From the NCBI RefSeq assembly GCF_016786255.1, contig NZ_JADMKT010000067.1:1-64000 (forward strand): a stretch of 64,000 nt of DNA, written 5' to 3'. The notes beneath the pieces were generated by a model. That model made no database searches, was not told the DNA's origin, and saw only the letters and a program-made list of their open reading frames with translations. Of the stretch, positions 20,545 through 52,441 are shown one piece after another (within the stretch, counting starts at the first letter, position 1; each line of letters begins with the position of its first letter). Both the position numbers and the translations under genes were made by a program. This stretch comes from Robertkochia sediminum (GTDB lineage: Bacteria > Bacteroidota > Bacteroidia > Flavobacteriales > Flavobacteriaceae).

Positions 20545-20716
20545 ATGGTGATAAGGTTATAAAGTGATGGGGTGGAAATGTACTAAAGGATTAGAGCCCC
20601 TGGAAAATAAGAGGTAATTTCTATTAGGCCTGATGTTTGGTAAAACAATGTAAGATTCGGATCTTCTCATAACCTCATAACCTCATAACCTCATAACCTC
20701 ATAACCTCATAACCTC
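20545..20716. repeat. Inverted-array element, 8-bp units, no gene inside
   Basis: On the right, six perfect tandem copies of ATAACCTC (20669-20716) run directly into the holB stop codon. On the left, four degenerate 8-bp units in the opposite orientation (20545-20576: ATGGTGAT, AAGGTTAT, AAAGTGAT, GGGGTGGA) resemble the reverse complement GAGGTTAT; the second matches at 7 of 8. The spacer is about 92 bp and holds no open frame. The architecture is the same as in the two four-helix-bundle elements of this window, so it may be a gene-less derivative. Confidence 0.6.
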
Positions 20717-21851
20717 ACTCCGCCTTTCGGTGCAGAAATCTCGTAAGGGAAAGCGACAGGTCGGTAAAGATCACCTTGCTGTTCACGTTACGTTCTACCT
20801 GGTAAAGGGCGGTTTCCAGTTCTTTATGGATCTCGGTGATGTTATTCCCGTGCACGAAAGGCGCAAATTTCTCCATTTTGAATCCGGTTTCGAATTCCAT
20901 AAAAGCGAGTTCTTTGGCATTGTAATTATACACCAATGCCTGGCGAAATACTTCCATGCAGTAATAGATGAACTTTTTTTGAGTTTCCCGACCTGTTTTG
21001 GCGACCTGGTCGCTCCAGGTGATCAGGTCATTGACCACAGCCTTGTTTCCTCTTGCTTTAAAAGCGGTACGCACCCAGGTAACGAACCATTTTTCAAAAA
21101 CTTCGTCTTCAGAGCGGTTCTCGATGAGGTCAAAGGCTTTGTTCAGGTTTCCGTCTGCACGGTGAGCGATCTTTAAGGCTTCAGCAGGTGGAGTGCCCTT
21201 TTGTTCCAGTGCCTTTACCACAGCTGCTTCAGCCAGGGGCGGGAAGTGAATGACCTGACATCGCGAGCGTATGGTTTGTAATAAGGCTTCTTCATCTTCA
21301 GCAATAAGAATGAACACGGTTTTCTCCGGCGGCTCTTCAATGAGCTTCAGCAATTTGTTTGACGCTGCATTGTTCATGAATTCGGCCATCCACATGATCA
21401 GAACGCGGTAACCACCTTCATAAGATTTTAGCGCCATTGACTTCATAATGTCTTTGGCCTCATAGACCGATATGAGACCCTGCTTTTTTTCGATCCCGAT
21501 ACTCAGCAGCCAGTCAAAGAGATTGCCATAGGGTTGTTCTTTGAGAAAGTCGATCCATTCTGTGGGGTAATCTTTACTGGTAGGGTCCTTTTTTACCTTA
21601 TCACTGGTATTTACCGGATAGGAAAAATGCAGGTCGGGATGCCCGAGGGCATCGAATTTCATATGACAGGCCTGCTGGTTGTTCAGGTCGTTGTTGCAAA
21701 TGATATATCGGGCATAGGCAATGGCCATGGGAAGCGTTCCCGAACCTTCGGGGCCTGCGAACAATTGTGCATGGGGAATTCTGCCCTGATCTGCACTGTG
21801 TTTCAGGTGATCCTTGATGTGTTCCTGACCGATAATTTCTTCGAATTGCAT
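20715..21851 (-). CDS. holB: DNA polymerase III subunit delta-prime
   Basis: 378 residues; clamp-loader subunit of the replicative polymerase. The N-terminus MQFEEIIGQEHIKDHL is typical of clamp-loader AAA+ proteins. The P-loop region GPEGSGTLPMAIAYA lacks the Walker lysine, as is usual for delta-prime. Later motifs are NAASNKLLKLIEEPPEKTVF and the SRC finger in TIRSRCQVIHFPPL. The C-terminal half is helical. It is transcribed convergently with the tRNA gene. Its stop codon (20715-20717) overlaps the end of the ATAACCTC array by two bases, so repeat growth has reached the end of this gene. Confidence 0.88.
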   Translation of the reverse strand: MQFEEIIGQEHIKDHLKHSADQGRIPHAQLFAGPEGSGTLPMAIAYARYIICNNDLNNQQACHMKFDALGHPDLHFSYPVNTSDKVKKDPTSKDYPTEWIDFLKEQPYGNLFDWLLSIGIEKKQGLISVYEAKDIMKSMALKSYEGGYRVLIMWMAEFMNNAASNKLLKLIEEPPEKTVFILIAEDEEALLQTIRSRCQVIHFPPLAEAAVVKALEQKGTPPAEALKIAHRADGNLNKAFDLIENRSEDEVFEKWFVTWVRTAFKARGNKAVVNDLITWSDQVAKTGRETQKKFIYYCMEVFRQALVYNYNAKELAFMEFETGFKMEKFAPFVHGNNITEIHKELETALYQVERNVNSKVIFTDLSLSLTRFLHRKAE

Positions 21852-21967
21852 AGACGCTGTTTAACGTCCGAAAAATAGCGGTTATTAAGGGTTTCTACAA
21901 GCGATTACAATGATTTTGAGCAGGAAAACAAAGAATTTTTCCCTAGTAATTTAATAGGGAATTCGCA

Positions 21968-21997
21968 TTTGCAACTTTTGATAAATACGTAACTTTG
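21968..21997 (+). promoter_or_regulatory. Promoter of pgk
   Basis: TTTG (21968-21971) and TAACTTTG (21990-21997), separated by 18 bp, match the Bacteroidota consensus. The inferred transcript would begin a few bases before the ATG at 22019, which supports that start over the earlier ATG at 22010. Confidence 0.7.
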
Positions 21998-22018
21998 TGT
22001 ATAATTTAGATGAATGAT

Positions 22019-23209
22019 ATGAAAACAATAGACGATTTTAATTTTGAGAATAAGAAGGCCCTGATCAGGGTTGATTTTAATGTTCCTGTAAACGAAAACT
22101 TCGAAGTTACCGATACTACCCGTATCGAAGCTGCGAAACCTACGATCATAAAGGTGCTTGAAGATGGAGGTAGTGCTATTTTGATGAGTCATATGGGGCG
22201 TCCTAAGGGGCAGGTGAATGAGTCGATGTCATTAAAGCATATTCTTGATAAGGTTTCTGAAGTTATCGGGGTGCAGGTAAAGTTTGCTGCTAACTGTGTT
22301 GGAGAAGAGGCAGAGCAAGCAGTAGCCGATCTCAAACCCGGAGAAGTATTGATGTTGGAGAATCTTCGTTTTCATGCTGAAGAGGAAAAAGGTGATGAGC
22401 AATTTGCAGAGCAGCTTTCTAAATTAGGTGATGTTTATGTGAACGATGCTTTTGGTACTGCCCACAGAGCCCATGCTTCGACCACCATCGTTGCGAAATT
22501 CTTCCCTGAGAACAAATGTTTCGGGTACCTTCTTGCCCGTGAGATCGAATCGATCGATAAGGTAATGAGCAGTGGTGAGAAGCCGGTAACGGCGATCCTT
22601 GGGGGGTCTAAGGTGTCCTCAAAGATCACCATCATTGAAAATATTCTTGATAAGGTAGATAACCTGATCATTGGTGGAGGTATGACCTATACCTTTATTA
22701 AAGCCCAGGGAGGTAAGATCGGGGATTCGATCTGTGAGGACGATAAACAAGACCTCGCCCTGAGTATTCTCGAAAAAGCGAAAACTCACGGAGTGAACGT
22801 TTACCTTCCTGTAGATGTGATCGCGGCCGATGATTTCAATAACAAGGCCAATACCAAGATCTGCGCAGTAGATGAGATCCCTGACGGATGGCAAGGACTG
22901 GATGCCGGTCCTAAGACCCTGGACAACTTCAGAGAGGTGATCCTGAACTCTAAGACCATTCTTTGGAACGGTCCTGTAGGGGTGTTCGAAATGGAGAGTT
23001 TCGCCAAGGGAACTATCGCTGTAGGTGAGTTTATCGCCGAGTCTACTGCCAACGGAGCCTTCTCTCTTGTAGGGGGTGGTGATTCTGTTGCTGCTGTAAA
23101 ACAGTTCGGTTTCGAAGAAAAGGTGAGCTATGTGTCTACCGGTGGGGGAGCCATGCTTGAAAGCCTTGAAGGAAAAACGCTTCCGGGAATTGCTGCTATC
23201 AGACAATAG
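22019..23209 (+). CDS. pgk: Phosphoglycerate kinase
   Basis: 396 residues, full family length. It transfers phosphate from 1,3-bisphosphoglycerate to ADP in glycolysis (cytosol). Motifs in order are RVDFNVPVN near residue 20, [45 protein letters not shown], the ATP-site [15 protein letters not shown], and [13 protein letters not shown] with STGGGAMLE at the end. The start at 22019 ([14 protein letters not shown]) fits related proteins; an ATG three codons earlier is less likely. It is a monocistronic unit with its own promoter and terminator. Confidence 0.97.
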
Positions 23210-23235
23210 GCAAGATCATTTTACGTTATATATCG

Positions 23236-23270
23236 CAAACCCTTGTACTTGATGCAAGGGTTTGTTTTTT
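23236..23270 (+). terminator. Terminator of pgk
   Basis: A perfect 10-bp stem, CAAACCCTTG (23236-23245) with CAAGGGTTTG (23255-23264), encloses a 9-nt loop and is followed by TTTTTT. Confidence 0.9.
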
Positions 23271-23339
23271 AACATTGTGTAGGGAGGATTGTTTAAAATT
23301 TCTCCGATTTTTGCACGTCCTAAAATGCCCTGAAAGATC

Positions 23340-24713
23340 ATGAATGCAATAAAGTATTTTTTACTGTTTATCCTTTGTGCGCCTTTTGCACTGAACGCCC
23401 AGGATGGTGTCAACCCATCGGGTAGCGCTGCGATTACCTCAGACACCACTGCTGTAAATAAAAAGGTGGAAGAAGAGAGATCATCAGATGCTGGATCTGC
23501 AAAAGGGATCGACCTTTTCGTGAAAAATGGAAAATACATACTTCCCGATGTTCCTTTCGCTAAAAGGGTAGACAGTCTTTGGTTACAGCAGTTCTACGGA
23601 TCCGGTCTCTACGATACGGTATATACCGATATTTCTTCCTTAGAATTTGAAAGGCCAGCACCGGTCGTATTGCCTACCGACACCTTGAAAGCGCGTTTGG
23701 AAAGGCTTAATCGTAAAACACCGTTTAATATTGAGTACAATCCGGTTCTGGAAAGCGTGATCAATAGCTACCTGAAACACCGCCAAAAGCACCTTACCAA
23801 GCTTATGGCCTTGAGTAAGTATTACTTTCCGATGTTCGAACAGGAATTCGATAAACACGATATTCCGCTGGAGATGAAATACTTGGCCATTGTCGAGTCG
23901 GCATTGAATCCGCGTGCAAAATCTAGGGTAGGAGCTACGGGACTTTGGCAATTCATGTTTTCGACCGGAAAGATCTACGACCTGAATGTAAGCAGTTATG
24001 TCGATGAGCGAAGCGATCCGGCACGTTCTACAGAGGCGGCGGCAAAATTCCTGGCGAAGCTGTACAAGATGTTCGGCGATTGGGACCTTGCCCTGGCGGC
24101 GTATAATTCAGGACCCGGAAATGTGTCAAAGGCGATACGTCGTAGCGGCGGAAGTGAGAATTACTGGAATTTAAGACCATTTTTACCCAGGGAAACTGCA
24201 GGTTATGTGCCGGCATTCCAGGCTACCATGTATATTTTTGAATACGCCAAAGAACACGGACTGCAGGAGTATCACCCGGAGTGGTCGTATTACGAGTCTG
24301 ATACCGTTAGGGTAAGGGAGCTCATTACCTTTGATCATGTGGCGGAGGTACTTGATATGGATGTAGAAGCACTCGAGTTCTTTAATCCGTCGTACAAGCT
24401 CAATATTATCCCGGATCTCGAAGATCGCAACTACGCGCTGAGATTGCCTGTAGATAAACTCGGAAAGTTCGTGGCCAATGAGCAGGTGATCTACGAGCAT
24501 GTGAAGGCAGACCTGGCCAAAAGAGAAAAGCCATTGCCTGAATTGGTAAAACAGAATTCGCGCATACGATATCGCGTACAGTCCGGAGATTACCTCGGTA
24601 GGATCGCCAAAAAATTTGGTGTCAGGGTTAGTGATATTAAGCGATGGAATGGTATGAGAAATAGTAATATCAGGGCCGGACAGCGTCTTACCATTTATCC
24701 GCGAAGACTCTGA
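23340..24713 (+). CDS. mltD: Membrane-bound lytic murein transglycosylase D-like, LysM
   Basis: 457 residues with a signal peptide (YFLLFILCAPFALNAQ). The catalytic SLT domain lies around residues 150-300: LAIVESALNP holds the catalytic Glu, followed by SRVGATGLWQFM and LALAAYNSGPGNVSKAI. A divergent LysM-like segment follows (about 330-385), then a clear C-terminal LysM (YRVQSGDYLGRIAKKFGV ... RAGQRLTIYP). It would cleave peptidoglycan glycan strands in the periplasm to give 1,6-anhydro-muropeptides and bind the wall through LysM. A -7-like GATTTTTG lies at 23306-23313. A DUF4837 lipoprotein gene follows after a terminator. Confidence 0.88.
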   Translation: MNAIKYFLLFILCAPFALNAQDGVNPSGSAAITSDTTAVNKKVEEERSSDAGSAKGIDLFVKNGKYILPDVPFAKRVDSLWLQQFYGSGLYDTVYTDISSLEFERPAPVVLPTDTLKARLERLNRKTPFNIEYNPVLESVINSYLKHRQKHLTKLMALSKYYFPMFEQEFDKHDIPLEMKYLAIVESALNPRAKSRVGATGLWQFMFSTGKIYDLNVSSYVDERSDPARSTEAAAKFLAKLYKMFGDWDLALAAYNSGPGNVSKAIRRSGGSENYWNLRPFLPRETAGYVPAFQATMYIFEYAKEHGLQEYHPEWSYYESDTVRVRELITFDHVAEVLDMDVEALEFFNPSYKLNIIPDLEDRNYALRLPVDKLGKFVANEQVIYEHVKADLAKREKPLPELVKQNSRIRYRVQSGDYLGRIAKKFGVRVSDIKRWNGMRNSNIRAGQRLTIYPRRL

Positions 24714-24752
24714 TGACCGGAGCGATCTCAAGAAGATAAGAAGAGAATACAG

Positions 24753-24793
24753 GCCTTCTGAACCGCGCTCAACACGGTCTGAAGGCTTTTTTA
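24753..24793 (+). terminator. Terminator after mltD
   Basis: GCCTTC (24753-24758) pairs with GAAGGC (24781-24786), and an inner ACCG/CGGT stem lies beyond a small internal loop. TTTTTT follows directly. Confidence 0.7.
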
Positions 24794-24876
24794 TTAAATT
24801 TATGTCCCCGATTTTCGGGATTGGAACGATATTCGCGGTAAGATCTGGTGAATTGTAATCAAAAAAGAATCAAAAG

Positions 24877-25887
24877 ATGAAGAACGTAGTCCTCTTGTTT
24901 TTCCTGTCACTTTTCCTTTTTTCATGTGAAGAGTCTGATAAAAAAGTACTCCCCAAGTCTGTGGGAGCGATCAATGAGATCTCTGTAGTGGTTGAAGACG
25001 AACTGTGGCAAGGTGCCCTGGGAGATACCATAAGAAAGTATTTCGCAGCACCTGTAGACGGTTTGCCATGGGATGAACCCCTGTTCACTATTCGCCAGGT
25101 GAGTCCGGAAGTATTTACCGACTTCGTACGTACCCGAAGAAATATTCTCATCGCCAAGGTAGACAGCACAAAACAGGCAGTTGTAAAGAACGACCTGTTT
25201 GCCAAGCCGCAGCAGGTAGCCATTCTCGAAGGTGGCAATACCGAAGCGCTTATGGCTCAGGTGGCACGTTTTGCTCCGGATATTATCGGGAAGTTCAAGG
25301 ATATGGAACTCAAAGAGTCTCAGAAACGTTTTCAGCGTTCCCTGAATAAGGAGAAAGATCTCCAGGAACTGGGAATATCGCTTACCATGCCGTCGATCTA
25401 CAAGATCACCAAAAAGGAAAATAACTTTTTCTGGATGGAAAGGATCATTCGCAATAACGGAACTATGAACATCTTGGTTTATGAGATGCCGTTAAACAGT
25501 ATTCCTAACGATACGACAAGGGTTGAGACCATCGTTAAAATGCGCGACAGCATTGGTGAGACCTATGTTCCCGGAAGGGAAGAGGGTATGTATATGATCA
25601 CTGAGAAGGCTTATGCGCCTTATGTGTTCGACACCGAGCTTGCCGGCAGAAAGGCTGTAGAGACCAAAGGAATGTGGGAAGTGAAGAATTTCTTCATGGC
25701 AGGTCCGTTCGTTAATTATATCGTAGAAGACAAGCCTAATGACCGTTTATTGGTTCTTGAAGGGTTCACCTTTGCGCCTTCGACCAATAAGCGCGATTAT
25801 ATGTTCGAATTAGAAGCGATCCTGAAAACCTTAAGATTCACAGATCAGGGGCAAGGAGACTCCGGTGTAGTTAGTGCATCGAAGTAA
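24877..25887 (+). CDS. DUF4837 family lipoprotein
   Basis: 336 residues. The lipoprotein signal LLFFLSLFLFSCEESDKK puts the lipobox Cys near residue 17. The body resembles the DUF4837 family of Flavobacteriia (recognised from memory): INEISVVVEDELWQG, GDTIRKYFAAPVDGLP, EPLFTIRQV and a C-terminal GPFVNYIVEDKPNDRL. The function is unknown; the protein should be anchored to a membrane and face the periplasm. It sits between a cell-wall hydrolase gene and tatA, with an M23 peptidase beyond, which hints at an envelope role but does not prove one. Confidence 0.75.
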   Translation: MKNVVLLFFLSLFLFSCEESDKKVLPKSVGAINEISVVVEDELWQGALGDTIRKYFAAPVDGLPWDEPLFTIRQVSPEVFTDFVRTRRNILIAKVDSTKQAVVKNDLFAKPQQVAILEGGNTEALMAQVARFAPDIIGKFKDMELKESQKRFQRSLNKEKDLQELGISLTMPSIYKITKKENNFFWMERIIRNNGTMNILVYEMPLNSIPNDTTRVETIVKMRDSIGETYVPGREEGMYMITEKAYAPYVFDTELAGRKAVETKGMWEVKNFFMAGPFVNYIVEDKPNDRLLVLEGFTFAPSTNKRDYMFELEAILKTLRFTDQGQGDSGVVSASK

Positions 25888-25910
25888 TTGCGAAGATACC
25901 GTAACAAAAA

Positions 25911-25936
25911 AGCCTTCTGAAAAGAAGGCTTTTTTT
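25911..25936. terminator. Bidirectional terminator between DUF4837 gene and tatA
   Basis: AGCCTTCT (25911-25918), loop GAAA, AGAAGGCT (25923-25930), then TTTTTT, with a matching A run in front. It can serve both convergent genes. Confidence 0.9.
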
Positions 25937-25958
25937 ATGAAGGTAGATGATTAATTGC

Positions 25959-26144: not shown

Positions 26145-26230
26145 GATTATAAAATTAAGTTCAGCTGCAAAGGTAAGAATTAAACTTTAAACTCTTATTT
26201 TTCAGTTATACAAAAAGCCAGTTTCCTCCT

Positions 26231-26261: not shown

Positions 26262-26268
26262 CTGTGAT

Positions 26269-34420: not shown

Positions 34421-34472
34421 ATTTGGCTAATTCCGAGAGTTTCGTGAGTTGTAGATGGGGGTAAATTGTAAA

Positions 34473-34826
34473 TCAATTATCAGTTAGTTTGGAAGCTAAG
34501 CTTATAAGCATTCGCTTTATGCGCATCAGATCATAGGTGTACTGGCTAATATCGGTAGTGAACCCCAGAAGTTTTGAGATTTCCAGTAATGTTTCTACTT
34601 CTGCCGTTGATCCAATGGCAATATTTATAAAGTATAAGAATTGTTTCGAAGTATTCCGGGCGCTTCCTTCAGCGATGTTGGCAGGAACAGATACTGCAGC
34701 CCTTCTTATTTGACTGATCAATCCGTATTTCTCTTCTTCGGGGAAAGCTGCAGTTAATTGGTAGAGTAAGCCAACCATTTGGAGGGATAATTTGTAGACA
34801 TCCAGATCTTTATGTGTTCTGACCAA
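34473..34826 (-). CDS. Four-helix-bundle protein (S23/IVS, Avd-like)
   Basis: 117 residues if translation starts at TTG 34826. That start is chosen because it aligns with the 115-residue homologue at 47443-47790 (RTHKDLDVYK against TTHKDLRVWK) and because a -7 element, TATATTTG, lies 17 bp before it. An ATG at 34898 would place the start upstream of that promoter. Family hallmarks are SQIRRAAVSVPANIAEGSAR and a C-terminal KRMLISLASKL. Homologues occur inside 23S rRNA intervening sequences, as Avd in diversity-generating retroelements, and as orphan genes; the orphan function is unknown. No reverse transcriptase or rRNA gene is near. The gene is enclosed by inverted repeats. Confidence 0.82.
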   Translation of the reverse strand: MVRTHKDLDVYKLSLQMVGLLYQLTAAFPEEEKYGLISQIRRAAVSVPANIAEGSARNTSKQFLYFINIAIGSTAEVETLLEISKLLGFTTDISQYTYDLMRIKRMLISLASKLTDN

Positions 34827-34842
34827 AACAATTAAATTTATA

Positions 34843-34850
34843 CAAATATA
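34843..34850 (-). promoter_or_regulatory. -7 element for the four-helix-bundle gene
   Basis: On the minus strand the sequence reads TATATTTG, a match to TAnnTTTG, 16 bp before the proposed TTG start. No good -33 element is visible. Confidence 0.45.
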
Positions 34851-34901
34851 TAGAAAATAACCTACACCACTTATTTTGTTATTATCACATTCGTTCAATC
34901 T

Positions 34902-34964
34902 CGCAATTAACGTAATTCAACCAATTCACGCAATTCACGCATTTAATGTAACTCACGAAATTCT
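34902..34964 (+). repeat. Degenerate 9-bp tandem array
   Basis: Seven consecutive units of 8-10 bp: CGCAATTAA, CGTAATTCAA, CCAATTCA, CGCAATTCA, CGCATTTAA, TGTAACTCA and CGAAATTCT, with consensus close to CGCAATTCA. It forms the right arm of the four-helix-bundle element and touches the rfbC promoter. Confidence 0.6.
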
Positions 34965-44541: not shown

Positions 44542-45894
44542 ATGTTTCATAAACAAGGGAGATATTCCGGATTGCTAAAACCCGTTTCCTATATCATAGA
44601 TCTCACCATTATTCTTGGTTTAGCCTATGTCCTGCCCTTGAAGTTGAGATATCCATTGCTTATCCTGGCGTATTTGGCCTTTACTTGGGTGATCATATCG
44701 GTTAAGAATGAGTTCTATCAGGTACAGCGTTATGCTAAGGTGTCGCGGGTTTTCTCTCTGTTATTCCGCCAGTTCGTTATTTTCTTTGTGGTGCTCTATG
44801 GCTTCATAGGGTTCTTTAAAGAGCATATGGTAAGCCGCTTGTTACTTGCGCAGTACTTCGCACTTTCTTTTTTTTTGGTCGCCTTTTTTAAGATCTTGAT
44901 GTATTATCTCCTGCAGCGCTATCGAAGGGCTCTTGGAGGCAACTTCAGAAACACACTGGTGGTTGGAAGTAACGTCAAGTCTGAGCAGCTTATCAATATC
45001 TTTAAGGATAGGCCTGAGTTTGGTTTTGTATTTAAAAAGCAGTTCAAGCCCGGTTCGAGATCATTTAAGGTTGAAGAGCTTATAGCTTATGCTGAAAGTG
45101 AAGAGATCGATGAGATCTACTGCTCGGTGGCAGAGCTAAATAACGAAGATCTGGGTGATATCGTTGACTATGCAGATAACAATCTGAAGGTGGTTAAATT
45201 CATCCCGGACAATAAGTTTATCTACAACCGTCGTCTCAAATTTGAATACTACGATTACCTGCCGGTACTGTCCTTGAGAGATATTCCGCTTGATGAATCG
45301 ATTAATTACGGATTGAAAAGAGTCTTCGATGTGGTTTTCTCACTTCTGGTTATTGTCTTTATACTATCCTGGCTGGTGCCTTTAATGGGCTTACTGATCA
45401 AAATGGAATCTAAAGGTCCGATTTTCTTTAAACAGAAGCGTCATGGTATCAACGGAGGTGAATTTCAGTGCTATAAGTTCCGTTCTATGGGGGTTAATAA
45501 GGATGCCGATAAGGCGCAAGCCACCAAGAACGATATGAGGGTAACCAAGATCGGAAACTTTATGCGCAGAACAAGTATCGATGAATTGCCTCAGTTCTTT
45601 AATGTGCTCTTCGGACAAATGTCTGTAGTAGGCCCTCGTCCGCACATGGTTTACCACACCGAGCTATATGGCGATCTTGTAGACAAATACATGGTACGTC
45701 ACTTTGTGAAGCCTGGGATTACCGGCCTGGCGCAGGTTCGTGGTTATCGTGGAGAGATCTCCAAGGATAGCGATATCATCAACCGTGTACGACTGGACAT
45801 TTTCTATGTGGAGAACTGGTCTATGGCACTGGACTTCAAGATCATTATTGATACCGTACTCAACGTCTTCCGCGGAGAGGAGAATGCATATTAG
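44542..45894 (+). CDS. Polyprenyl-phosphate hexose-1-phosphate transferase (WcaJ/WbaP type)
   Basis: 450 residues. Four N-terminal membrane helices (about 10-125), a nucleotide-binding-like middle (NTLVVGSNVKSEQLINIF), a fifth helix (about 265-290) and the bacterial sugar-transferase domain. That domain carries IFFKQKRHGINGGEFQCYKF, RRTSIDELPQFFNVLFGQMS, VGPRPHM and KPGITGLAQVRGYRGE. It starts O-unit or exopolysaccharide synthesis by moving sugar-1-phosphate from a UDP-sugar to undecaprenyl phosphate in the inner membrane. Its base composition is that of the core genome, unlike the AT-rich genes just upstream. Confidence 0.88.
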   Translation: MFHKQGRYSGLLKPVSYIIDLTIILGLAYVLPLKLRYPLLILAYLAFTWVIISVKNEFYQVQRYAKVSRVFSLLFRQFVIFFVVLYGFIGFFKEHMVSRLLLAQYFALSFFLVAFFKILMYYLLQRYRRALGGNFRNTLVVGSNVKSEQLINIFKDRPEFGFVFKKQFKPGSRSFKVEELIAYAESEEIDEIYCSVAELNNEDLGDIVDYADNNLKVVKFIPDNKFIYNRRLKFEYYDYLPVLSLRDIPLDESINYGLKRVFDVVFSLLVIVFILSWLVPLMGLLIKMESKGPIFFKQKRHGINGGEFQCYKFRSMGVNKDADKAQATKNDMRVTKIGNFMRRTSIDELPQFFNVLFGQMSVVGPRPHMVYHTELYGDLVDKYMVRHFVKPGITGLAQVRGYRGEISKDSDIINRVRLDIFYVENWSMALDFKIIIDTVLNVFRGEENAY

Positions 45895-46048
45895 GGTGAA
45901 GGTGTAAAGAGGTAAAGGGATAATGGATATTTGTGATTCAGGCCTGAGGATGCTTTTTTCATACCTGCATACCTGCGTACCTGCGTAACTGCGTACCTGC
46001 GTAACTGCGTAACTGCGTAACTGCGTAACTGCGTAACTGCGTAACTTA
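45893..46048. repeat. Inverted-array element, 8-bp units, upstream of purD
   Basis: The right arm (45961-46048) has ten 8-bp units: ATACCTGC twice, then GTACCTGC and GTAACTGC mixed, with GTAACTGC repeated perfectly at the end, plus a partial unit. The left arm (45893-45924) has four purine-rich 8-bp units of opposite strand character (AGGGTGAA, GGTGTAAA, GAGGTAAA, GGGATAAT), only weakly similar to the reverse complement. The 36-bp spacer includes the palindrome TCAGGCCTGA (45938-45947). No open frame. The left arm starts at the stop codon of the sugar transferase gene and the right arm ends 8 bp before the purD -7 element. Confidence 0.55.
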
Positions 46049-46108: not shown

Positions 46109-47380
46109 ATGAACATTCTTGTACTCGGTTCCGGAGGACGTGAACACACCCTAACCTGGAAGATCGCTCAAAGTAATCACGTTGATCATCTATTTGTAGC
46201 TCCCGGAAATGCAGGCACAGCTGCTATCGCGAATAACGTGCCTGTATCTCCCAACGATTTTGAAGCTGTAAAGGAACTGGTTGTTAATGAAAACATCGAT
46301 ATGGTGGTTGTCGGACCTGAAGATCCGCTGGTACAGGGAATCTACGATTACTTCCAGGAACAGGAGGAGTTAAAAGGAGTGCATGTGATCGGTCCGTCAA
46401 AGACCGGAGCGATCCTCGAAGGAAGTAAAGAGTTCGCTAAAGAATTTATGTCAAGACATAACATTCCTACCGCGGCCTACCAAAGTTTTACCTCGGATAG
46501 TCTCGAAGCGGGTTATGCTTTTCTGGAAACACTCAAGGCACCGTATGTATTGAAAGCCGACGGACTCGCAGCCGGGAAAGGGGTGCTTATTATTGATGAT
46601 ATTGAAGAGGCAAAAGCCGAACTAAAAAATATGCTGGTCGATGCCAAGTTCGGACAGGCTAGTGCCAAGGTGGTGATCGAGGAGTTCCTTAGTGGGATCG
46701 AACTCAGTGTATTCGTGCTTACCGATGGTCGTGACTATCTGATCCTGCCTACAGCTAAAGATTACAAACGTATTGGCGAAGGCGACACCGGACTCAATAC
46801 CGGGGGTATGGGGGCTATTTCACCGGTACCTTTCGCCGATGCCGAATTCATGCAGAAGATCGAAGAGCGCATCGTTAAACCTACCGTAGACGGCTTTAAA
46901 AAGGATAATATCACCTATAAAGGATTTGTTTTCATCGGACTCATTAAAGTCGATGGAGAGCCTTATGTGATCGAATACAATGTTCGTATGGGTGACCCGG
47001 AGACCGAGGTGGTGATCCCTAGGATCAAGAATGATATCGTAGACCTGTTCCTTGCAACTGCTAATGGGAGCCTGGCCGATAAGACCCTGGAGATCGATGA
47101 GCGTGCTGCCACCACGATAATGGCAGTTTCCGGAGGGTATCCCGAGGCGTATGAAAAAGGTAAGGAGATCGTCGGACTTGAAAATGTGAAAGACAGTATC
47201 GTGTTCCACGCCGGAACAAAGCAAGAAGGAGATAAAGTAGTCACCTCAGGTGGTCGGGTCATCGCCTTCACTTCGTTTGGTGACGACTTCAGAGAAGCGC
47301 TTAAAACCTCATACGACAGCCTGAACAAGGTGTGTTTTGACGGGATCTATTACCGCAAGGATCTTGGGTTTGATCTTTAA
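46109..47380 (+). CDS. purD: Phosphoribosylamine-glycine ligase
   Basis: 423 residues from ATG 46109 (MNILVLGSGGREHTL), the standard start and length. ATP-grasp enzyme of purine synthesis joining glycine to phosphoribosylamine in the cytosol. Motifs are VVVGPEDPLVQGI, ADGLAAGKGVLI, LNTGGMGAISPVP, EYNVRMGDPETEVV and a C-terminal GYPEAYEKGKEI. Its stop codon lies within a perfect 15-bp inverted repeat (47372-47404). In related bacteria the DUF6341/DUF6427/upp group is often near purD; here a four-helix-bundle element intervenes. Confidence 0.95.
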   Translation: MNILVLGSGGREHTLTWKIAQSNHVDHLFVAPGNAGTAAIANNVPVSPNDFEAVKELVVNENIDMVVVGPEDPLVQGIYDYFQEQEELKGVHVIGPSKTGAILEGSKEFAKEFMSRHNIPTAAYQSFTSDSLEAGYAFLETLKAPYVLKADGLAAGKGVLIIDDIEEAKAELKNMLVDAKFGQASAKVVIEEFLSGIELSVFVLTDGRDYLILPTAKDYKRIGEGDTGLNTGGMGAISPVPFADAEFMQKIEERIVKPTVDGFKKDNITYKGFVFIGLIKVDGEPYVIEYNVRMGDPETEVVIPRIKNDIVDLFLATANGSLADKTLEIDERAATTIMAVSGGYPEAYEKGKEIVGLENVKDSIVFHAGTKQEGDKVVTSGGRVIAFTSFGDDFREALKTSYDSLNKVCFDGIYYRKDLGFDL

Positions 47381-47404
47381 AATGGCCAAGCCATTTTAAA
47401 GATC
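47372..47404. repeat. Perfect 15-bp inverted repeat at the purD stop
   Basis: GATCTTTAAAATGGC (47372-47386), loop CAA, GCCATTTTAAAGATC (47390-47404). The TAA stop of purD lies within the left arm. It could act as a terminator hairpin, though no T run follows. Confidence 0.7.
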
Positions 47405-47442
47405 TGTTATGGGCTAGGAGTTAGGAGCTAAGGGTTGTTAGC

Positions 47443-47790
47443 TTATTGAACGGCTTTAATGAGGTTGATTAACATTCTTCTAATTGAGGTTATTCTACTA
47501 GTTAAGTGCTCTGAATATTCAGCATAACCAAGATCAGCTGCAATTTCAAGTTGAGTATCTAGTTCGGCAAGAGATCCTAATGAAATGTATAGAAACCTAC
47601 AAAGTTCTTTATTTCCTTTTCGTGCAGACCCTTCTGCAATGTTTGAAGGAATCGAAATAACACTTCTTCTAATTTGGCTTTGTAGAGCGTATTGCTCATG
47701 TTGAGGAAAGTCTTTGGTGTGCATGTAAACAATGCTTACTAATTCTTTTGAACTTTTCCATACTCTAAGGTCTTTATGTGTTGTGATCAT
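47443..47790 (-). CDS. Four-helix-bundle protein (S23/IVS, Avd-like)
   Basis: 115 residues, all helical. TTHKDLRVWKSSKELV at the start, SQIRRSVISIPSNIAEGSAR in the middle and RRMLINLIKAVQ at the end mark the family. It is clearly homologous to the protein at 34473-34826 but well diverged, so the two are not a recent copy of one another. Family members bind nucleic acid or assist retroelements in known cases (Avd); the function of orphan forms is unknown. There is no reverse transcriptase in the window. Enclosed by inverted tandem arrays. Confidence 0.85.
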   Translation of the reverse strand: MITTHKDLRVWKSSKELVSIVYMHTKDFPQHEQYALQSQIRRSVISIPSNIAEGSARKGNKELCRFLYISLGSLAELDTQLEIAADLGYAEYSEHLTSRITSIRRMLINLIKAVQ

Positions 47791-47890
47791 TATTCATCTC
47801 ATTTTCAACATAATATAGAAAAAATTCTATACATTTCATTCTGAATAGTTTTAATTCTACCTCAAGTTTTCTAAATCCAAAACTTTTAAA

Positions 47891-47990
47891 TTAGCCCTTA
47901 GCCCTTAGCCCTTAGCCCTTAGCCCTTAGCCCTTAGCCCTTAGCCCTTAGCCCTTAGCCCTTAGCCCTTAGCCCTTAGCCCTTAGCCCTT
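47891..47990 (+). repeat. Fourteen perfect copies of TTAGCCC
   Basis: An uninterrupted heptamer array of 100 bp (14 units plus TT). There is no variation between units, which suggests recent expansion by slippage or active homogenisation. It sits upstream of the four-helix-bundle gene, so the gene's strand reads GGGCTAA repeats. Confidence 0.95.
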
Positions 47991-48003
47991 AACTTATAAC
48001 CAC

Positions 48004-48036
48004 AAAAAAACCCCAAAGCCTTTCGACCTCGGGGTT
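48004..48036 (-). terminator. Terminator of the DUF6341 gene
   Basis: On the minus strand AACCCC (48036-48031) pairs with GGGGTT (48014-48009) and is followed by a T run. It lies about 30 bp past the end of the minus-strand DUF6341 gene. Confidence 0.7.
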
Positions 48037-48066
48037 CTTTCCAAAAATTGTATTGTTGAGAAACGC

Positions 48067-48288
48067 TTACAGGTAAGAGTGCCCTGTTACGTCTTTTCTT
48101 TCTTCGTTATTGTCGTTAAATTTCTTTAACTGCCCCATCCAGTATACGAATGCTACAGAACCGATCAACATAAAGATCCAGTTGAGGGTGTTGGCACCCC
48201 ACCAGCTGTCCATTCCTCTCAAAGCGTGAAGCGGAGCGAAAAGATAATCTTCAAATAAGGTCTGTATACCGTAGAAAAAATCTGCCAT
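48067..48288 (-). CDS. DUF6341 family small membrane protein
   Basis: 73 residues from ATG 48288 (MADFFYGIQTLFEDYLFAPL). An ATG 13 codons earlier overlaps the promoter -7 element and is unlikely. One membrane helix (NTLNWIFMLIGSVAFVYWM) precedes the conserved end LKKFNDNNEERKDVTGHSYL. Recognised from memory as DUF6341 of Flavobacteriia; its function is unknown. It is divergent from the DUF6427 membrane protein gene, a pairing seen near purD and upp in relatives. Confidence 0.75.
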   Translation of the reverse strand: MADFFYGIQTLFEDYLFAPLHALRGMDSWWGANTLNWIFMLIGSVAFVYWMGQLKKFNDNNEERKDVTGHSYL

Positions 48289-48316
48289 GACTAAAAGATA
48301 TATTAAATTTACCCCG

Positions 48317-48347
48317 CAAACATACAAAAAGCCTCCATGATTTCAAG
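48317..48347 (-). promoter_or_regulatory. Promoter of the DUF6341 gene
   Basis: On the minus strand CTTG (48347-48344), 19 bp, TATGTTTG (48324-48317): close to the Bacteroidota consensus. It overlaps the first codons of the divergent DUF6427 gene. Confidence 0.6.
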
Positions 48348-49260
48348 CATTTTTGGAAGAACTAAACCGATAAACTATATCTTTCTTGCGCTTTTTGGCC
48401 TCATCTTTCTTGTTTGCTATTTTTTGATTGCGGCTCCCGATGTTTTTTCTTTGGCTCAGCTGCCCGGTATCGCCCTGAATATCTTCCTGGTATTGTTTAC
48501 CATGATGCTGGTCGAGTTCATCAACCGAAAGAACGACCTCACCAGGGATAACACCTACCTGAGTTTTCTTTTTCTGACCTTTCTCTGCATGTTTCCGCGG
48601 ATCTTCGCCGATCTCAACGCGGTTATCGCACATATTTTTATCCTGCTGGCGTTCCGCAGAGTCATTAGCATTCGCAGCGGCCAGGATGTACGCCTAAAGA
48701 TCTTTGATGCTGCCCTATGGGTTTTTGTGGCCACCCTGTTGTACAGTTGGTCTGTGGTCTTTCTTTTATTGGTCTTTGCCGGAATATTTCTTTACGGAGT
48801 GAATTACTATAAGAATCTTCTGGTGCCTCTGGTGGCACTGGTGGTTGTGGCCATCCTGGCCATCACCTTTAATCTTTGGACCGGCCAGGGCCTGCAATGG
48901 GCAACCTACTTTGATCTTACGCCTACCTTTACCCTGGATAAATACGATTCTTTGCGGTTTTTGGTGCCGGTTATTTTAATGGCCTGCTTGGGAATCATAG
49001 GGCTTACGGCGTATTTTGTAGGGGTTGGTCGTAAATCGTATAAAGCCCGAATTCCGGGATGGCTTATCCTGTTCTTTTTTGCCCTGGCTGTATTACTGGT
49101 AGCACTCGTAGAAAGCGCCAATACTTCAGAACTGATCTTTGTGGCCTTTCCCCTCTGTGTAATGATCGTTAATTACCTGGAAAGCCTGGAGCGAAAGTGG
49201 ATAAGAGAGGTAGTCCTTTGGCTGTTTCTGCTGCTACCGTTAGTGGCATTATTTCTGTAG
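48337..49260 (+). CDS. DUF6427 family integral membrane protein
   Basis: 307 residues with about 9-10 membrane helices spread over the whole length and few polar loops. Motifs seen: GRTKPINYIFLALFGLIF at the start, FINRKNDLTRDNTY, and FPRIFADLNAVIAHIFILLA. From memory this is DUF6427, found in Flavobacteriia next to upp; its role is unknown. Its stop overlaps the end of the convergent upp gene by 12 bp. Confidence 0.72.
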   Translation: MISSIFGRTKPINYIFLALFGLIFLVCYFLIAAPDVFSLAQLPGIALNIFLVLFTMMLVEFINRKNDLTRDNTYLSFLFLTFLCMFPRIFADLNAVIAHIFILLAFRRVISIRSGQDVRLKIFDAALWVFVATLLYSWSVVFLLLVFAGIFLYGVNYYKNLLVPLVALVVVAILAITFNLWTGQGLQWATYFDLTPTFTLDKYDSLRFLVPVILMACLGIIGLTAYFVGVGRKSYKARIPGWLILFFFALAVLLVALVESANTSELIFVAFPLCVMIVNYLESLERKWIREVVLWLFLLLPLVALFL

Positions 49261-49905
49261 TTTTTCTCCAAAGGCCAGGTCCCCGGCATCTCCCAGCCCG
49301 GGTACAATATAGGCGTAGTCGTTGAGTTCCGGATCAATATCTCCCACCCACAGTCGTGTTTCCGGCGGAAAATGCTTTGCGATATAATCTACGCCTTCCT
49401 GTGAGGCGATAGCAGTTACCAAATGAATTTCTTTGGGAAGTCCGACTTTCGTAAGGGCTTCAAAAGTAGCCACCAGTGAGTGTCCGCTGGCCAGCATAGG
49501 GTCGGCGAGAATGAGAACCTTCTTGTCGAGATCGGGACTGGCGAGGTATTCTACGATGATCTCAAATTCGGTGTCGCTTGTGTGATAGCGGTAAGCTGAA
49601 ATAAAGGCGTTCTCTACCCAGTCAAAATAATTGAGGATCCCCTGGTGTAATGGAAGTCCGGCCCTTAATACCGAACAGATCACGATCTTGTCCTGAAGGT
49701 TTTGTGCATGTTTAACCCCCAATGGCGTGACAATGTCTTCTTCCTGAAAATGAAGATGCTTGCTGAGCTCATAACTGAGGATCTCTCCGATGCGTTCCAG
49801 ATTTCGTCGAAACCGCATGGAATCTTTTTGGATCTCTTGATCTCTTAGCTGGTTCAGGTAATTGTTTAGTATGGAAGGCGCTTTTGCCAGATGATGGATC
49901 TTCAT
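49249..49905 (-). CDS. upp: Uracil phosphoribosyltransferase
   Basis: 218 residues. Type I phosphoribosyltransferase that makes UMP from uracil and PRPP (pyrimidine salvage). The PRPP loop reads VLILADPMLASGHSLVA, where most UPRTs have ATGGS, a variant of the motif. The C-terminal uracil-binding part has LWVGDIDPELNDYAYIVPGLGDAGD. VLRAGLPLHQGIL is the other conserved block. It converges on the DUF6427 gene with a 12-bp tail overlap. Confidence 0.92.
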   Translation of the reverse strand: MKIHHLAKAPSILNNYLNQLRDQEIQKDSMRFRRNLERIGEILSYELSKHLHFQEEDIVTPLGVKHAQNLQDKIVICSVLRAGLPLHQGILNYFDWVENAFISAYRYHTSDTEFEIIVEYLASPDLDKKVLILADPMLASGHSLVATFEALTKVGLPKEIHLVTAIASQEGVDYIAKHFPPETRLWVGDIDPELNDYAYIVPGLGDAGDLAFGEKLQK

Positions 49906-50019
49906 GTTCTAAATTTAGGTATTTCTGCTGTTTTATGAGCTGCAATTTCCAGCTGGCTAAGGCTGTTTTCATGATCTATGGGCGTCAGGGAATCCCGTGT
50001 GCTGTCATTAACTCCTGAT

Positions 50020-50649
50020 TCAGGATTCCATAGCCTCATTATCCGTTGCTTCCTGGGTAGGTTTTAAGGCGTCGTATTTTTCAGATCCTGCCCCTAATTG
50101 CTGCAGCGTACTAATAACTTCTTTGGGGGTCATGTCGAGCTTTATAATTCGTGAGGGATCTACATATATTACAGATCCGGACCACGGATTAGGGGCGCCG
50201 GGGAGGTATACGACTACACGGCCTTTTTTGGTGCGTTCGATCTCAAAGCCTACCTGCGCATTATCGTCAAATTCAGCCAGTACAGGCAGGAAGTTCTCTG
50301 CAGCCTTCTCATTGCTTTTGAATCCGTCGGTTATCCCTTTGACAAAACGGTATCCCGGCAGATTGATCAGCACCTTGTTTTCAATGACACTCTGAAGCTT
50401 TTTAAGGTTTTTAGCGTTTGCCGCCAAACCCGCCAGGAAGCAAAGCACTAAAATAGCCATGATTGCAAGGATGTTGGCCAGGGCTACACCGCCAACCCGT
50501 TCTATAGGGATTAATTTACCCAGCGGTTCGGCAACCCTCAGCATGATCTGAAATGCCTTGGTGAGGATGATGAAGATCAAAACAAAAGGTATTAAAAAGA
50601 GTATACCTCCAATGATGGTGGTTTTTAGGAATTCGAACATCTTACTCAT
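50020..50649 (-). CDS. DUF502 family membrane protein
   Basis: 209 residues. Two N-terminal membrane helices (TTIIGGILFLIPFVLIFIIL and ALANILAIMAILVLCFLAGL) are followed by a soluble domain with INLPGYRFVKGITDGFKS and VVVYLPGAPNPWSGSVIYVD, the DUF502 signature. The biochemical function is unknown; the protein should sit in the inner membrane. The last ~25 residues are polar and probably disordered. It appears to be a single-gene unit. Confidence 0.85.
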   Translation of the reverse strand: MSKMFEFLKTTIIGGILFLIPFVLIFIILTKAFQIMLRVAEPLGKLIPIERVGGVALANILAIMAILVLCFLAGLAANAKNLKKLQSVIENKVLINLPGYRFVKGITDGFKSNEKAAENFLPVLAEFDDNAQVGFEIERTKKGRVVVYLPGAPNPWSGSVIYVDPSRIIKLDMTPKEVISTLQQLGAGSEKYDALKPTQEATDNEAMES

Positions 50650-50960
50650 AATGGTCAGGCTTTAATTGGAGGGTGTAAATAATTTAATATCAGAAAGTTA
50701 TGAATTATTACTGAATATTTTGTATTTGCATGGCTTACAGCTTGATAGGAGGTGAACGCTCGAATGCCGTTGGATTTTCAATGATGTCTCTTGCCTTTTT
50801 TTGCAGCCTGTTTACAAGTTTGAAATATGGTGCGGTTTTTATTGCTTTTACGTTGCGTGTAATTGGGGTGGTATGCCTGGTATGATCATGTGGTTTTGCG
50901 CCTTGTTTCCTGTGAACACATCGGTTAAATTGCCTATCTTTACCGACAAATTACAAGCCT
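50650..50960. other. Intergenic region with a possible 51-codon frame
   Basis: 311 bp between divergent DUF502 and DUF4254 genes. A plus-strand frame 50730-50885 (51 codons, MAYSLIGGERSN, with a hydrophobic C-terminal half) is the only open stretch, and I cannot recognise it. TATCTTTA at 50935-50942 is a likely -7 element for the DUF4254 gene. Nothing else stands out. Confidence 0.35.
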
Positions 50961-51566
50961 ATGTTTAGCGAATTTGCTTTCAAGATATTTGACGAGAGTA
51001 TTGAGAAATACCACGTAAAAGACGATGTTTATCAATCGTTCGAAAACCCATACCCAAAAGACCAGATCGAGCACCTGCTTTACCGCAAGAATTGGATCGA
51101 TACTGTACAATGGCACTACGAAGATATTATCAGAGATCCTGAGATCGACCCGGTAGCCGCTCTTGACCTTAAGCGCAAGATCGATGCTTCGAACCAGGAC
51201 CGTACCGATATGGTAGAATATATCGACAGTTTTTTTCTGAATAAGTACAAGGACGTAACTCCTGAAGAAGGGGCTACCATTAATTCTGAAAGTCCGGCAT
51301 GGGCTATCGATCGTTTGTCGATCCTCGCCCTTAAGATCTACCATATGCAGGAGGAAGTAGACCGTGAAGGCGCTTCTGAAGATCACAAAGCTAAATGTGA
51401 AGCGAAGCTGAATGTTTTGCTGGAGCAGAAGAAGGATCTTTCTACGGCTATCGATCAGCTGTTGGCCGATATTGAGAGTGGCAAGAAATACATGAAGGTG
51501 TATAAGCAGATGAAGATGTACAACGACGAAGAGCTTAACCCTGTGCTTTACAAGAATAAGAAATAA
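50961..51566 (+). CDS. DUF4254 domain protein
   Basis: 201 residues, helical and charged, matching the DUF4254 family in size and motifs: YRKNWIDTVQWHYEDIIRDP near residue 40, AALDLKRKIDASNQDRTDMV, and NSESPAWAIDRLSILALKIY. Members usually lie next to LPS-type glycosyltransferase genes, as here, where a GT gene follows 32 bp downstream. No membrane helix. The function is not established; a role in lipopolysaccharide or core synthesis is inferred from context only. Confidence 0.82.
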   Translation: MFSEFAFKIFDESIEKYHVKDDVYQSFENPYPKDQIEHLLYRKNWIDTVQWHYEDIIRDPEIDPVAALDLKRKIDASNQDRTDMVEYIDSFFLNKYKDVTPEEGATINSESPAWAIDRLSILALKIYHMQEEVDREGASEDHKAKCEAKLNVLLEQKKDLSTAIDQLLADIESGKKYMKVYKQMKMYNDEELNPVLYKNKK

Positions 51567-51598
51567 TCTGACCTTTCGGTCGTACAATCACTGCTGAT

Positions 51599-52336
51599 AT
51601 GGCACAAGACAAGAATATTCACATCTTCTGCATGAAATGGGGAACCCTCTACGGGCCGGAGTATGTGAACCGTTTGCACGCTATGGTAAAGCGCAATCTA
51701 ACCCTCCCTTTTACCATGGTTTGTTTTACCGACAACGAGGAAGGGATCGATAAAGACGTAAAGTGCTTTCCAATTCCTGAGATCGATATTCCCGGAAACC
51801 TTCCGGAGCGTATGTGGAAGAAGCTCACCACACTTAAAGAGGACCTCTACGGACTCGAAGGAACGGCGCTTTTCCTGGATCTCGATATCGTGATCGTAGA
51901 CAATATCGATTGCTTCTTTGAAGATGATGCACCGTTCCGAATTATTAAGGATCATTCATGGAGAACCTGGAGAATAACCGGGAACTCTTCGGTATACCGC
52001 TTCGAGATCGGAAAACACGGATATGTTTTTGATTACTTCACCAAGAATTTTGACCAGATCAGAAAGGATCATCGTAACGAACAGGAATACCTTACCTGGG
52101 CGGTTCATGAAAAGGGATATTTGAACTACTGGCCCAAAGAGTGGTGCCCGAGTTTTAAATACGATTGTGTTTCGCGATTCCCCCTGGCCTTCTGGAAGAA
52201 GCCGGAGATCCCGGAAGGGTCTAAGATCATTATCTTCCACGGAGAGATCAATCCGCATAAAGCCATTGAAGGCGGCCGCGGAAAATGGTACCGATATGTA
52301 AGACCGGCACCTTGGGTAGCCGACTATTGGAAATAA
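51599..52336 (+). CDS. Glycosyltransferase with GT8-like DxD motif
   Basis: 245 residues of GT-A type. NIHIFCMKWGTLYGPEYVNR opens the nucleotide-sugar fold, and ALFLDLDIVIVDNID has the metal-binding DxD. NEQEYLTWAVHEKG and IIFHGEINPHKAI near the end fit the GT8-like pattern of a late His ligand. It would add a sugar to a surface glycan at the cytoplasmic side, probably together with the DUF4254 protein encoded just upstream. Donor and acceptor are unknown. A strong terminator follows. Confidence 0.75.
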   Translation: MAQDKNIHIFCMKWGTLYGPEYVNRLHAMVKRNLTLPFTMVCFTDNEEGIDKDVKCFPIPEIDIPGNLPERMWKKLTTLKEDLYGLEGTALFLDLDIVIVDNIDCFFEDDAPFRIIKDHSWRTWRITGNSSVYRFEIGKHGYVFDYFTKNFDQIRKDHRNEQEYLTWAVHEKGYLNYWPKEWCPSFKYDCVSRFPLAFWKKPEIPEGSKIIIFHGEINPHKAIEGGRGKWYRYVRPAPWVADYWK

Positions 52337-52342
52337 AAAAAA

Positions 52343-52367
52343 GGGAAGCACAATGCTTCCCTTTTTT
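52343..52367. terminator. Bidirectional terminator after the glycosyltransferase gene
   Basis: GGGAAGCA (52343-52350), loop CAA, TGCTTCCC (52354-52361), then TTTTTT, with an A run in front. Confidence 0.92.
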
Positions 52368-52376
52368 AGTTATAAC

Positions 52377-52441
52377 GTTATGAGGTTAAAAAGGTTATGA
52401 TGCATTAAACCCGTCTTTCCTCTTTCCTCTTGACTCTGATT
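52377..52441. repeat. Short degenerate repeat pair in a convergent gap
   Basis: The left part is GTTATGAG, GTTAAAAA, GGTTATGA (52377-52400). Its first 12 bases exactly match the reverse complement of the ATAACCTC array at 20669-20716. The right part is TCTTTCC twice, then TCTTGAC and TCTGATT (52414-52441), touching the stop of the reductase gene. It resembles a shorter, decayed version of the inverted-array elements. Confidence 0.4.

Follow-up and report, generated by a model that had tools for sequence, protein, structure and literature searches.

Among described systems, the closest to the elements reported here are the intervening sequences (IVSs) of 23S rRNA genes that carry an S23p open reading frame (ORF), as found in Leptospira, Coxiella and other bacteria. 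The Coxiella IVS is 428 nt long and possesses an S23p ORF, a terminal stem and, upstream of the ORF, tandem heptamers whose copy number varies between strains; such sequences have been called selfish and are suspected of being mobile (PMC4990558). Here we describe related elements from a 64,000-nucleotide stretch of the Robertkochia sediminum genome (contig NZ_JADMKT010000067.1, positions 1 to 64,000; G000:C58:1-64000, hereafter the window), in which two genes for the 23S rRNA-intervening sequence protein (IVP, or S23; PF05635) are each bracketed by inverted arrays of a short tandem unit. We consider it likely that the arrays and the four-helix-bundle gene together make up one small mobile element of about 0.4–0.6 kb, of the intervening-sequence kind and without a recognised transposase. 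The observations that carry this reading are the anatomy of the element, its breadth, a tie between repeat unit and protein lineage among close proteins, presence or absence of the element at conserved junctions between genes, and derivatives that have the unit but lack the gene. The elements resemble the 23S rRNA IVSs in their PF05635 protein, size, complementary ends and heptamers, but lie between protein genes, and often end in longer tandem arrays; empty sites, derivatives lacking the gene and dispersed arrays with the element's unit are also seen.

Dispersed heptamer arrays are a second point of comparison. Those of GGGNATC type (Xanthomonas and Nostoc; PMC4692102) and of TAACTGA type (Beggiatoaceae, Cyanobacteria and Bacteroidetes; PMC4679880) likewise have 7-bp units and are mostly intergenic, and the inverted GGGAATC pairs of Xanthomonas resemble the inverted arms found here (PMC4692102). 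What sets the present elements apart is an IVP gene that carries the unit in its own arms, which was confirmed for GGGAATC and not for TAACTGA. The short tandemly repeated repetitive (STRR) sequences of cyanobacteria are also dispersed heptamer arrays. Miniature inverted-repeat transposable elements (MITEs) and insertion sequence (IS) elements have in common with our elements the inverted ends, the gene-less derivatives and, at one site, a clean 5-bp target duplication. Unlike in these, the ends are tandem arrays, most of the sites compared show no clean duplication, and no transposase was found within the two gene-bearing elements of the window, where PF05635 is the only recognisable gene between the arms. 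In the REP/RAYT system, short dispersed intergenic repeats (repetitive extragenic palindromes, REPs) are associated with a gene that they themselves bracket; each REP is an imperfect palindrome, and the REP-associated tyrosine transposase (RAYT) is a Y1 nuclease. The likeness lies in the bracketing of a gene by a repeat that has dispersed copies, but the window genes match PF05635 and not a Y1 HUH transposase.

The original prediction, made from the window sequence alone, described four places, and more weakly a fifth, sharing one plan, a degenerate G-rich array on the left and an inverted, better-preserved array on the right, two of them with a four-helix-bundle gene. We called arrays with Tandem Repeats Finder (TRF) and scored the inverted left arms against 400 dinucleotide shuffles. 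The plan held at 20545, 34435 and 47411, where the shuffles reached the observed scores at most once. At 45893 the left partner is no better than chance, the shuffles reaching its score in 400/400 cases by unit and in 342/400 between arms. At 52377 there is a lone degenerate array, for which no inverted partner was found (the right side was reached by 170/400 shuffles). Both four-helix-bundle genes belong to PF05635/TIGR02436, and two of the three confirmed inverted pairs carry one. The further prediction of one element family with gene-bearing and gene-less forms was borne out, and the link between gene and arrays reaches far outside the window. In order, the complete element comprises a G-rich tandem array of 7–9 bp units, a promoter region (with a palindrome in this genus), the IVP/S23 gene (PF05635) and the array in inverted orientation.

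To score inverted arms, each downstream flank was reverse-complemented and compared with its upstream flank, and the result was set against those of all mismatched flank pairs. The first set comprised 64 loci from the window's genome (G000; 3.53 Mb in 82 contigs), its genus and the order Flavobacteriales. It was reduced from 68 by the exclusion of fragments L104, L108, L112 and L116, which were also left out of the unit–protein, free-array, palindrome and arm-composition counts. Inverted arms exceeded the 95% level at 48 of the 64 loci and the 99% level at 27, with 4/64 in the direct-orientation control (Wilcoxon p=1e-11). A second set, from many phyla, consisted of the best 80 among the listed matches, over a third of them Bacteroidota by title, and 76 were usable, four having a short flank or ORF. 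Here the two levels were exceeded at 47 and 20 of the 76 loci, against 14/76 in direct orientation (p=1.3e-13); several of these loci also bear long direct arrays. Ten of the 45 plasmid records with an IVP match were examined, giving inverted scores of 33–63 in seven and 16–22 in three. The arm units at the seven loci were GGGAGTA, GGGTGTA, AGGTGAC/AGGGAAC, an AAAAGCT type, GGGAACA, GGGAAAA and one 9-bp unit. A further 30 loci, several of which overlap the earlier sets, scored at least 30 in 18 cases.

When the loci were pooled, 88 of 153 scored at least 30. In 86 of these 88, G outnumbers C in the upstream arm, and the best array period is 7 in 84 arms, 8 in 38 and 9 in seven. The arms start a median of 17.5 bp after the stop codon and end a median of 46 bp before the start codon. 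The predicted contrast between a degenerate left and a better right arm did not carry over to these clear loci, the upstream array being the higher at 43, the downstream array at 37 and the two equal at eight. Both window copies of the IVP gene and the ten annotated plasmid copies sit between protein genes and not in a 23S rRNA gene.

The orientation of neighbouring genes, taken from a plain ORF caller, could be classed at 116 of 148 loci, leaving 32 unclassed. The IVP gene is co-directional with both neighbours at 70 of the 116, lies between convergent genes at 26 and between divergent genes at three. In a mobile element the inverted arms may fold in read-through transcripts and so spare an interrupted operon, like the 23S rRNA intervening sequences. 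An alternative, possible but rather unlikely, places everything at the RNA level: the arms fold in the read-through transcript, RNase III removes the insert, selection against operon damage keeps the arms complementary, and the arrays are inert as DNA. The predominance of co-directional gene runs argues for it, as do the inverted arms at loci of many phyla and the Coxiella intervening sequence, which has tandem heptamers and a 28-bp terminal stem and is cut by RNase III in vitro (PMC4990558). It is at odds with the elements between convergent genes and with the free single arrays, which are common, and it leaves the spread of the unit unexplained. In addition, the upstream arm precedes the apparent promoter, so that the element's own mRNA would lack this arm.

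Two of the plasmid loci, L241 and L242, lie within clustered regularly interspaced short palindromic repeat (CRISPR) loci of Anabaena sp. 90 and Pseudanabaena galeata, respectively, with the IVP gene between cas6 and cas4; their repeat units differ. The Anabaena sp. 90 CRISPR locus is of type I-D, judging by its cas1d. A survey of CRISPR associations lists '23S rRNA IVP' among the domains in one of its figure legends (PMC10910872), and IVP genes in this position may explain that entry.

Among close proteins, the repeat unit follows the lineage of the IVP protein and not the locus. Arms were counted as shared at a score of at least 30, pairs from the same site being left out; L013, whose flanks are common with L001, was excluded from this count as well as from the free-array and arm-composition counts. 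Sharing falls with protein identity, from 5/6 pairs at 0.70 or above to 13/24 (0.65–0.70), 14/67 (0.60–0.65), 28/247 (0.55–0.60) and about 3% below that. The 97 pairs with an identity of at least 0.60 include 32 that share arms, whereas 2000 permutations of arms among loci gave 3.2 on average and 13 at most. One sharing pair joins a Flavobacteriales genome (L023) to a cyanobacterial plasmid (L247), with a protein identity of 0.66 and an arm score of 47. The statement that each locus has its own unit was therefore misleading, since close IVP relatives, and some free arrays too, have the same unit at different sites. Nor do the arrays appear to be made from local sequence, as the original prediction proposed: 18 of the 30 pairs with at least 65% identity, from different sites and different species, have a common unit.

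Comparison of sister species, the near relatives of the same genus and family numbered from G001, leads to the same conclusion from the opposite side, as elements at the same site often differ in unit and, at certain sites, also in IVP clade. Downstream of purD, G000, G001 (with a broken gene) and G004 each carry the element, with three different units (GGGCTAA, GGGTTAT and GATGCGAA-like), and G003 lacks it. In the gap before purD, inspected by eye, G000, G001 and G003 have arrays alone, the units of G001 and G003 differing from that of G000, and G004 has a full IVP element. At four sites (D, E, H and J), sister species carry IVP genes from different clades and the starred branches force two origins, in a tree that contains long branches and whose bootstrap had not settled. 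The three IVP genes after purD were not recovered as one clade, and a single origin is still compatible with the tree. For the different-clade pairs at D, E, H and J, the flank matches that were found joined upstream to upstream and downstream to downstream. Together with the clade difference, this suggests repeated insertion in the same orientation at these sites.

The proposal of a process that builds arrays from local sequence at each locus would accommodate orthologous sites with different units, such as that after purD. We rejected it as the main account, and give it almost no credence, because the differing units at D, E, H and J go with different IVP clades, which points to separate insertions, and because units recur across sites and species together with the protein. 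The sharing of units between sites and species, combined with the differences in unit and clade at one site, fits elements that carry their own arrays.

Related cyanobacterial plasmids with and without the IVP gene show discrete insertions of 0.4–0.5 kb at the same gene junctions. At the cleanest site, filled in Trichormus variabilis and Scytonema and empty in Nostoc linckia and Aulosira, the flanks are 97–99% identical. The insert, of 409–423 bp, is flanked by a 5-bp duplication, GTAAT; one filled copy has 14 bp more array than the other. In T. variabilis the element lies between two hypothetical genes, and a TrbI/VirB10-family gene follows. At another junction, filled in L246 and L380 and empty in L378 and L379, TTCTA was seen by eye at either end of the element but was not resolved by automatic junction calling. 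Arrays and gene are jointly absent at the cleanest empty sites. Gene-less and decayed forms occur as well: on the Nostoc N6 plasmid, an inverted-array insert of 181 bp that contains no IVP gene lies within an IVP gene whose arms have the same unit; where two other plasmids carry the IVP form, ATCC 53789 has a gene-less GGGAAC element; and Nostoc C052 pE holds a decayed copy of the IVP element.

We propose that the IVP protein, an Avd-related helical bundle, would recognise the unit of its own arrays and pair the two ends. It is probably a pentamer; five chains are present in each of its solved relatives, 2gsc (XCC0516) and 2rld. The element and unit-matched gene-less copies might then move in trans with the help of a host nuclease or polymerase. 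The arrays would afterwards lengthen or shorten by slippage, lose the gene, and remain as dispersed short repeats.

A 400-kb sample of G000 contained 15 arrays of 6–10 bp units, nine of them outside ORFs of at least 120 amino acids and most without an inverted partner. Eleven IVP-bearing genomes gave 23 arrays outside ORFs in 1.4 Mb, four of them (G018, G025, G038 and G011) having no non-coding array in 100 kb each, and no array outside ORFs was found in the 600 kb sampled from four genomes without an IVP match. In this small sample, in which kinship was uncontrolled, non-coding arrays were not as frequent without the protein family as with it, in keeping with the original prediction. G036, which has no IVP match, has 11 arrays clustered inside ORFs on one stretch; these coding 9-bp repeats (L129, 13041–15918) are unrelated to the non-coding arrays. 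It is highly improbable that the arrays are slippage minisatellites arising independently at gene junctions, with IVP genes drifting in or beside them. The genus is rich in arrays that have neither IVP gene nor inverted partner, and array copy number varies, both of which would suit such an origin. Against it, arms are inverted far more often than direct, gene and arrays are both missing at the cleanest empty sites, units match across species when the proteins are close, and the 600 kb sampled from the four IVP-less genomes yielded no non-coding array.

An overall-score comparison of free arrays with IVP arms proved uninformative because long arrays inflate the score. In its place we searched the arms of resident IVP genes for two tandem copies of the free-array unit with at most one mismatch, covering 12/13 IVP genes in G000, 12/15 in G001, 8/14 in G004, 7/9 in G003 and 3/7 in G002. 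The unit recurred in a resident arm for 16 of 36 free arrays, compared with about 1.2 for shuffled units. The free arrays of G000 matched arms of their own genome in 11 of 17 cases, arms of G003 in four, arms of G001 in one, and arms of G004 or G002 in none. As to the arrays of the window, those of CTCATAAC and TTAGCCC match several places in G003 and G004 and none in G001 or G002, and that of CTGCGTAA has two matches in G001 and one in G003. Sister species differ sharply in their array families.

The association was also sought for the two published heptamers. GGGAATC arrays form 70 and 75 inverted pairs in two Xanthomonas genomes and are generally unassociated with IS or transposable elements (Rehm et al. 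2015, PMC4692102). Among 369 Gammaproteobacteria genomes, the exact tandem (GGGAATC)3 occurred only in G432, whose single IVP match has a GGGAATC array on one side and a GATTCCC array on the other. In its relative G439, one of two IVP genes likewise has GGGAATC arms, by eye at the same gene junction. For TAACTGA repeats a regulatory role has been proposed, with a repeat-binding protein offered as a possible mobile part (MacGregor 2015, PMC4679880). Arrays of three TAACTGA units were present in 4/249 genomes of the family; all four have IVP genes, compared with 40/60 relatives, a weak difference. TAACTGA was not confirmed as an IVP unit: G636 was the one of these four genomes covered, and its four IVP loci lack clear inverted arms (scores 16–22). 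A loose threshold gave TAACTGA-like sequence on both sides at 12/150 other loci, and therefore does not discriminate. One gap of G636 (L399, 1438–1534) has GGCAGTA x4.6 as its left array and AACTGAT x5.7 as its right, units that share only CAGT; this is possibly a stage of unit divergence. A word search of the excerpted text of PMC4692102 and PMC4679880 found no IVP partner named for GGGNATC or TAACTGA repeats.

A conserved palindrome precedes the IVP genes of the genus. The pattern TAGA-N3..11-CTA[TC], nearly always with N7, was located at most 110 bp 5' of the start codon in 27/43 of these genes, compared with two in downstream control windows. It is conserved although the arrays of these genes differ, and the copy at 47815–47829 in the window is likely to be a promoter or operator. 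This bears on a decidedly unlikely alternative, that IVP is an RNA- or DNA-binding regulator for which the arrays near start or stop codons are binding sites kept by selection, its own arms being autoregulatory. The palindrome suggests regulation, the units of some free arrays recur in the arms of resident IVP genes, and the proposal for TAACTGA repeats (MacGregor 2015, PMC4679880) is of this kind. The palindrome, however, is common to IVP genes with differing arrays and is thus not the array; the turnover of sites between sister species and between plasmids looks selfish and not regulatory; and no regulatory role could be identified for the GGGNATC arrays (Rehm et al. 2015, PMC4692102).

Several observations weigh against the mobile-element reading. 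The evidence for it consists of presence and absence, movement itself not having been observed. Seven insertion sites were compared, and only one has a clean 5-bp duplication; another shows a 3-bp duplication relative to one empty plasmid and none relative to another, and the gene-less 181-bp insert of Nostoc N6 shows 1 bp. At five of the seven, that with TTCTA included, the filled copy is without 11–46 bp of the empty sequence at the automatic junctions, so that target loss or divergence is common. Clear inverted arms (95% level) are missing from 16/64 Flavobacteriales and 29/76 many-phyla loci, and at some, such as L242 (the Pseudanabaena plasmid, one of the seven with inverted scores of 33–63) and L348, direct repeats are stronger than inverted ones. 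The overall correlation of unit with protein identity, calculated for a smaller set, is null (rho 0.01, reached by 747/2000 permutations). This is as expected if units fade beyond some divergence, and the tie accordingly holds for close proteins only, a pattern that plain inheritance also predicts.

The free arrays of the sister species belong on the same side. Those of G004 match weakly, with 4/13 in its own arms, three each in G001 and G003, and one each in G000 and G002; those of G003 are uninformative (1/2 in its own arms and also one in G000, G001 and G002); and those of G001 match its own arms in 0/4 cases and arms of G003 in two. By these per-genome counts the specificity of free arrays comes from G000. 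Finally, two of six IVP-less genomes in the genus of G432 still have GGGAATC pairs (23 and four places), and TAACTGA arms are present at none of the four IVP loci of G636.

PF05635 is related to Avd of diversity-generating retroelements (PMC10053308). In our material the likeness is weak, consisting of matches to PF22296 and NF033474, with one window gene weakly resembling bAvd. Nevertheless, it raises an extremely unlikely alternative, in which a reverse transcriptase copies the element in trans with IVP as an Avd-like partner. Unlike in these retroelements, the reverse transcriptase domain RVT_1, the one trans-acting enzyme domain covered by our search, was absent from all 13 genomes searched, nine of which have 7–16 IVP genes. 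There is thus no standing requirement for it in those genomes, and past movement is still allowed. IVP matches were found in 40/60 relatives searched. G000 holds 13 matches, seven of them on a single 68-kb contig, which makes a local cluster, and two of its IVP genes, L001 and L013 (G000:C70), stand in tandem.

Each of the three components (IVP family, rRNA elements, heptamer arrays) is already known; what appears to be new is the inverted-array bracket across phyla, the tie between unit and protein, and the empty sites. Within the titles, abstract openings and excerpts of the open PubMed Central papers listed, subscription papers being outside the scope, no link was found between PF05635 genes outside rRNA and inverted heptamer arrays or empty sites. 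The data tie together three puzzles: what the common 'four helix bundle protein' (S23/IVP) does, where the heptamer repeats of several phyla come from, and by what mechanism the rRNA intervening sequences are selfish. We tentatively put forward a broader claim, which we hold to be slightly less likely than not: that PF05635 is the protein part of widespread tiny transposase-free elements with self-read inverted 7–9 bp arrays, in which repeat and protein co-diversify, and that these gave rise both to the dispersed heptamer arrays found in cyanobacteria, xanthomonads and Bacteroidota and to the 23S rRNA intervening sequences. If so, a mobile element would be able to spread although it encodes no recognisable enzyme and its protein has only about 115 residues, and IVP elements may account for much of the short repeated DNA across many bacterial genomes.

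The features of the window are collected in Table 1.

Table 1. Arrays, IVP genes and associated palindromes in the window (shuffle counts out of 400 dinucleotide shuffles)
Feature	Position	Strand	Support or remark
Left degenerate array of gene-less inverted pair, unit ~GTTATGAG	20540..20573	+	Shuffles 0/400
Right array of gene-less pair, CTCATAAC x6.5	20666..20717	-	TRF; unit common with arms of resident IVP element L008
Left G-rich degenerate array, unit ~TGAATTGCG	34429..34451	+	Shuffles: unit 0/400, arm-arm 1/400
IVP / S23 gene, ORF of 141 amino acids from TTG	34473..34898	-	PF05635 3e-31
Imperfect TATAGAAAATAATCTA-like palindrome 5' of IVP start (L009)	34849..34866		By eye; strict pattern fails
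Right C-rich degenerate 9-bp array	34902..34963	-	TRF score 54, 67% matches
Solo array CTGCGTAA x10.2, gap between glycosyl-phosphotransferase gene and purD	45965..46046	-	TRF
Left G-rich degenerate array, unit ~GGGCTAA, of IVP element downstream of purD	47406..47434	+	Shuffles: unit 0/400, arm-arm 1/400
IVP / S23 four-helix-bundle gene, 115 amino acids	47443..47790	-	PF05635 9e-35, TIGR02436 5e-35
Palindrome TAGA-N7-CTAT, 25-39 bp 5' of IVP start codon	47815..47829
Right C-rich array TTAGCCC x14.4 (G-rich strand GGGCTAA)	47891..47991	-	TRF, 100% match
Solo degenerate array of GTTATGAG type	52369..52400	+	Shuffles 0/400 for unit

The gene-less pair is flanked by tRNA-Cys and a DNA polymerase III delta-prime-type gene (PF13177), and the IVP element at 34429–34963 by an NTP-transferase gene and a dTDP-sugar-isomerase gene, as identified by Pfam. 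The real start of the IVP gene of the latter element is probably near 34826, giving 117 amino acids, since the family match begins at residue 30; the flank scoring took this shorter start. A perfect long palindrome (47372–47404) spans the purD stop codon and directly adjoins the left arm of the element downstream of this gene; it might serve as a terminator or have arisen by fold-back during insertion. Inspection by eye showed another palindrome, of different sequence, at the position of the purD stop in G004, and one next to the arm of L011. Elsewhere in the window, positions 9907–19920 encode a 3337-amino acid SprB-repeat protein with a type IX secretion C-terminal signal domain.

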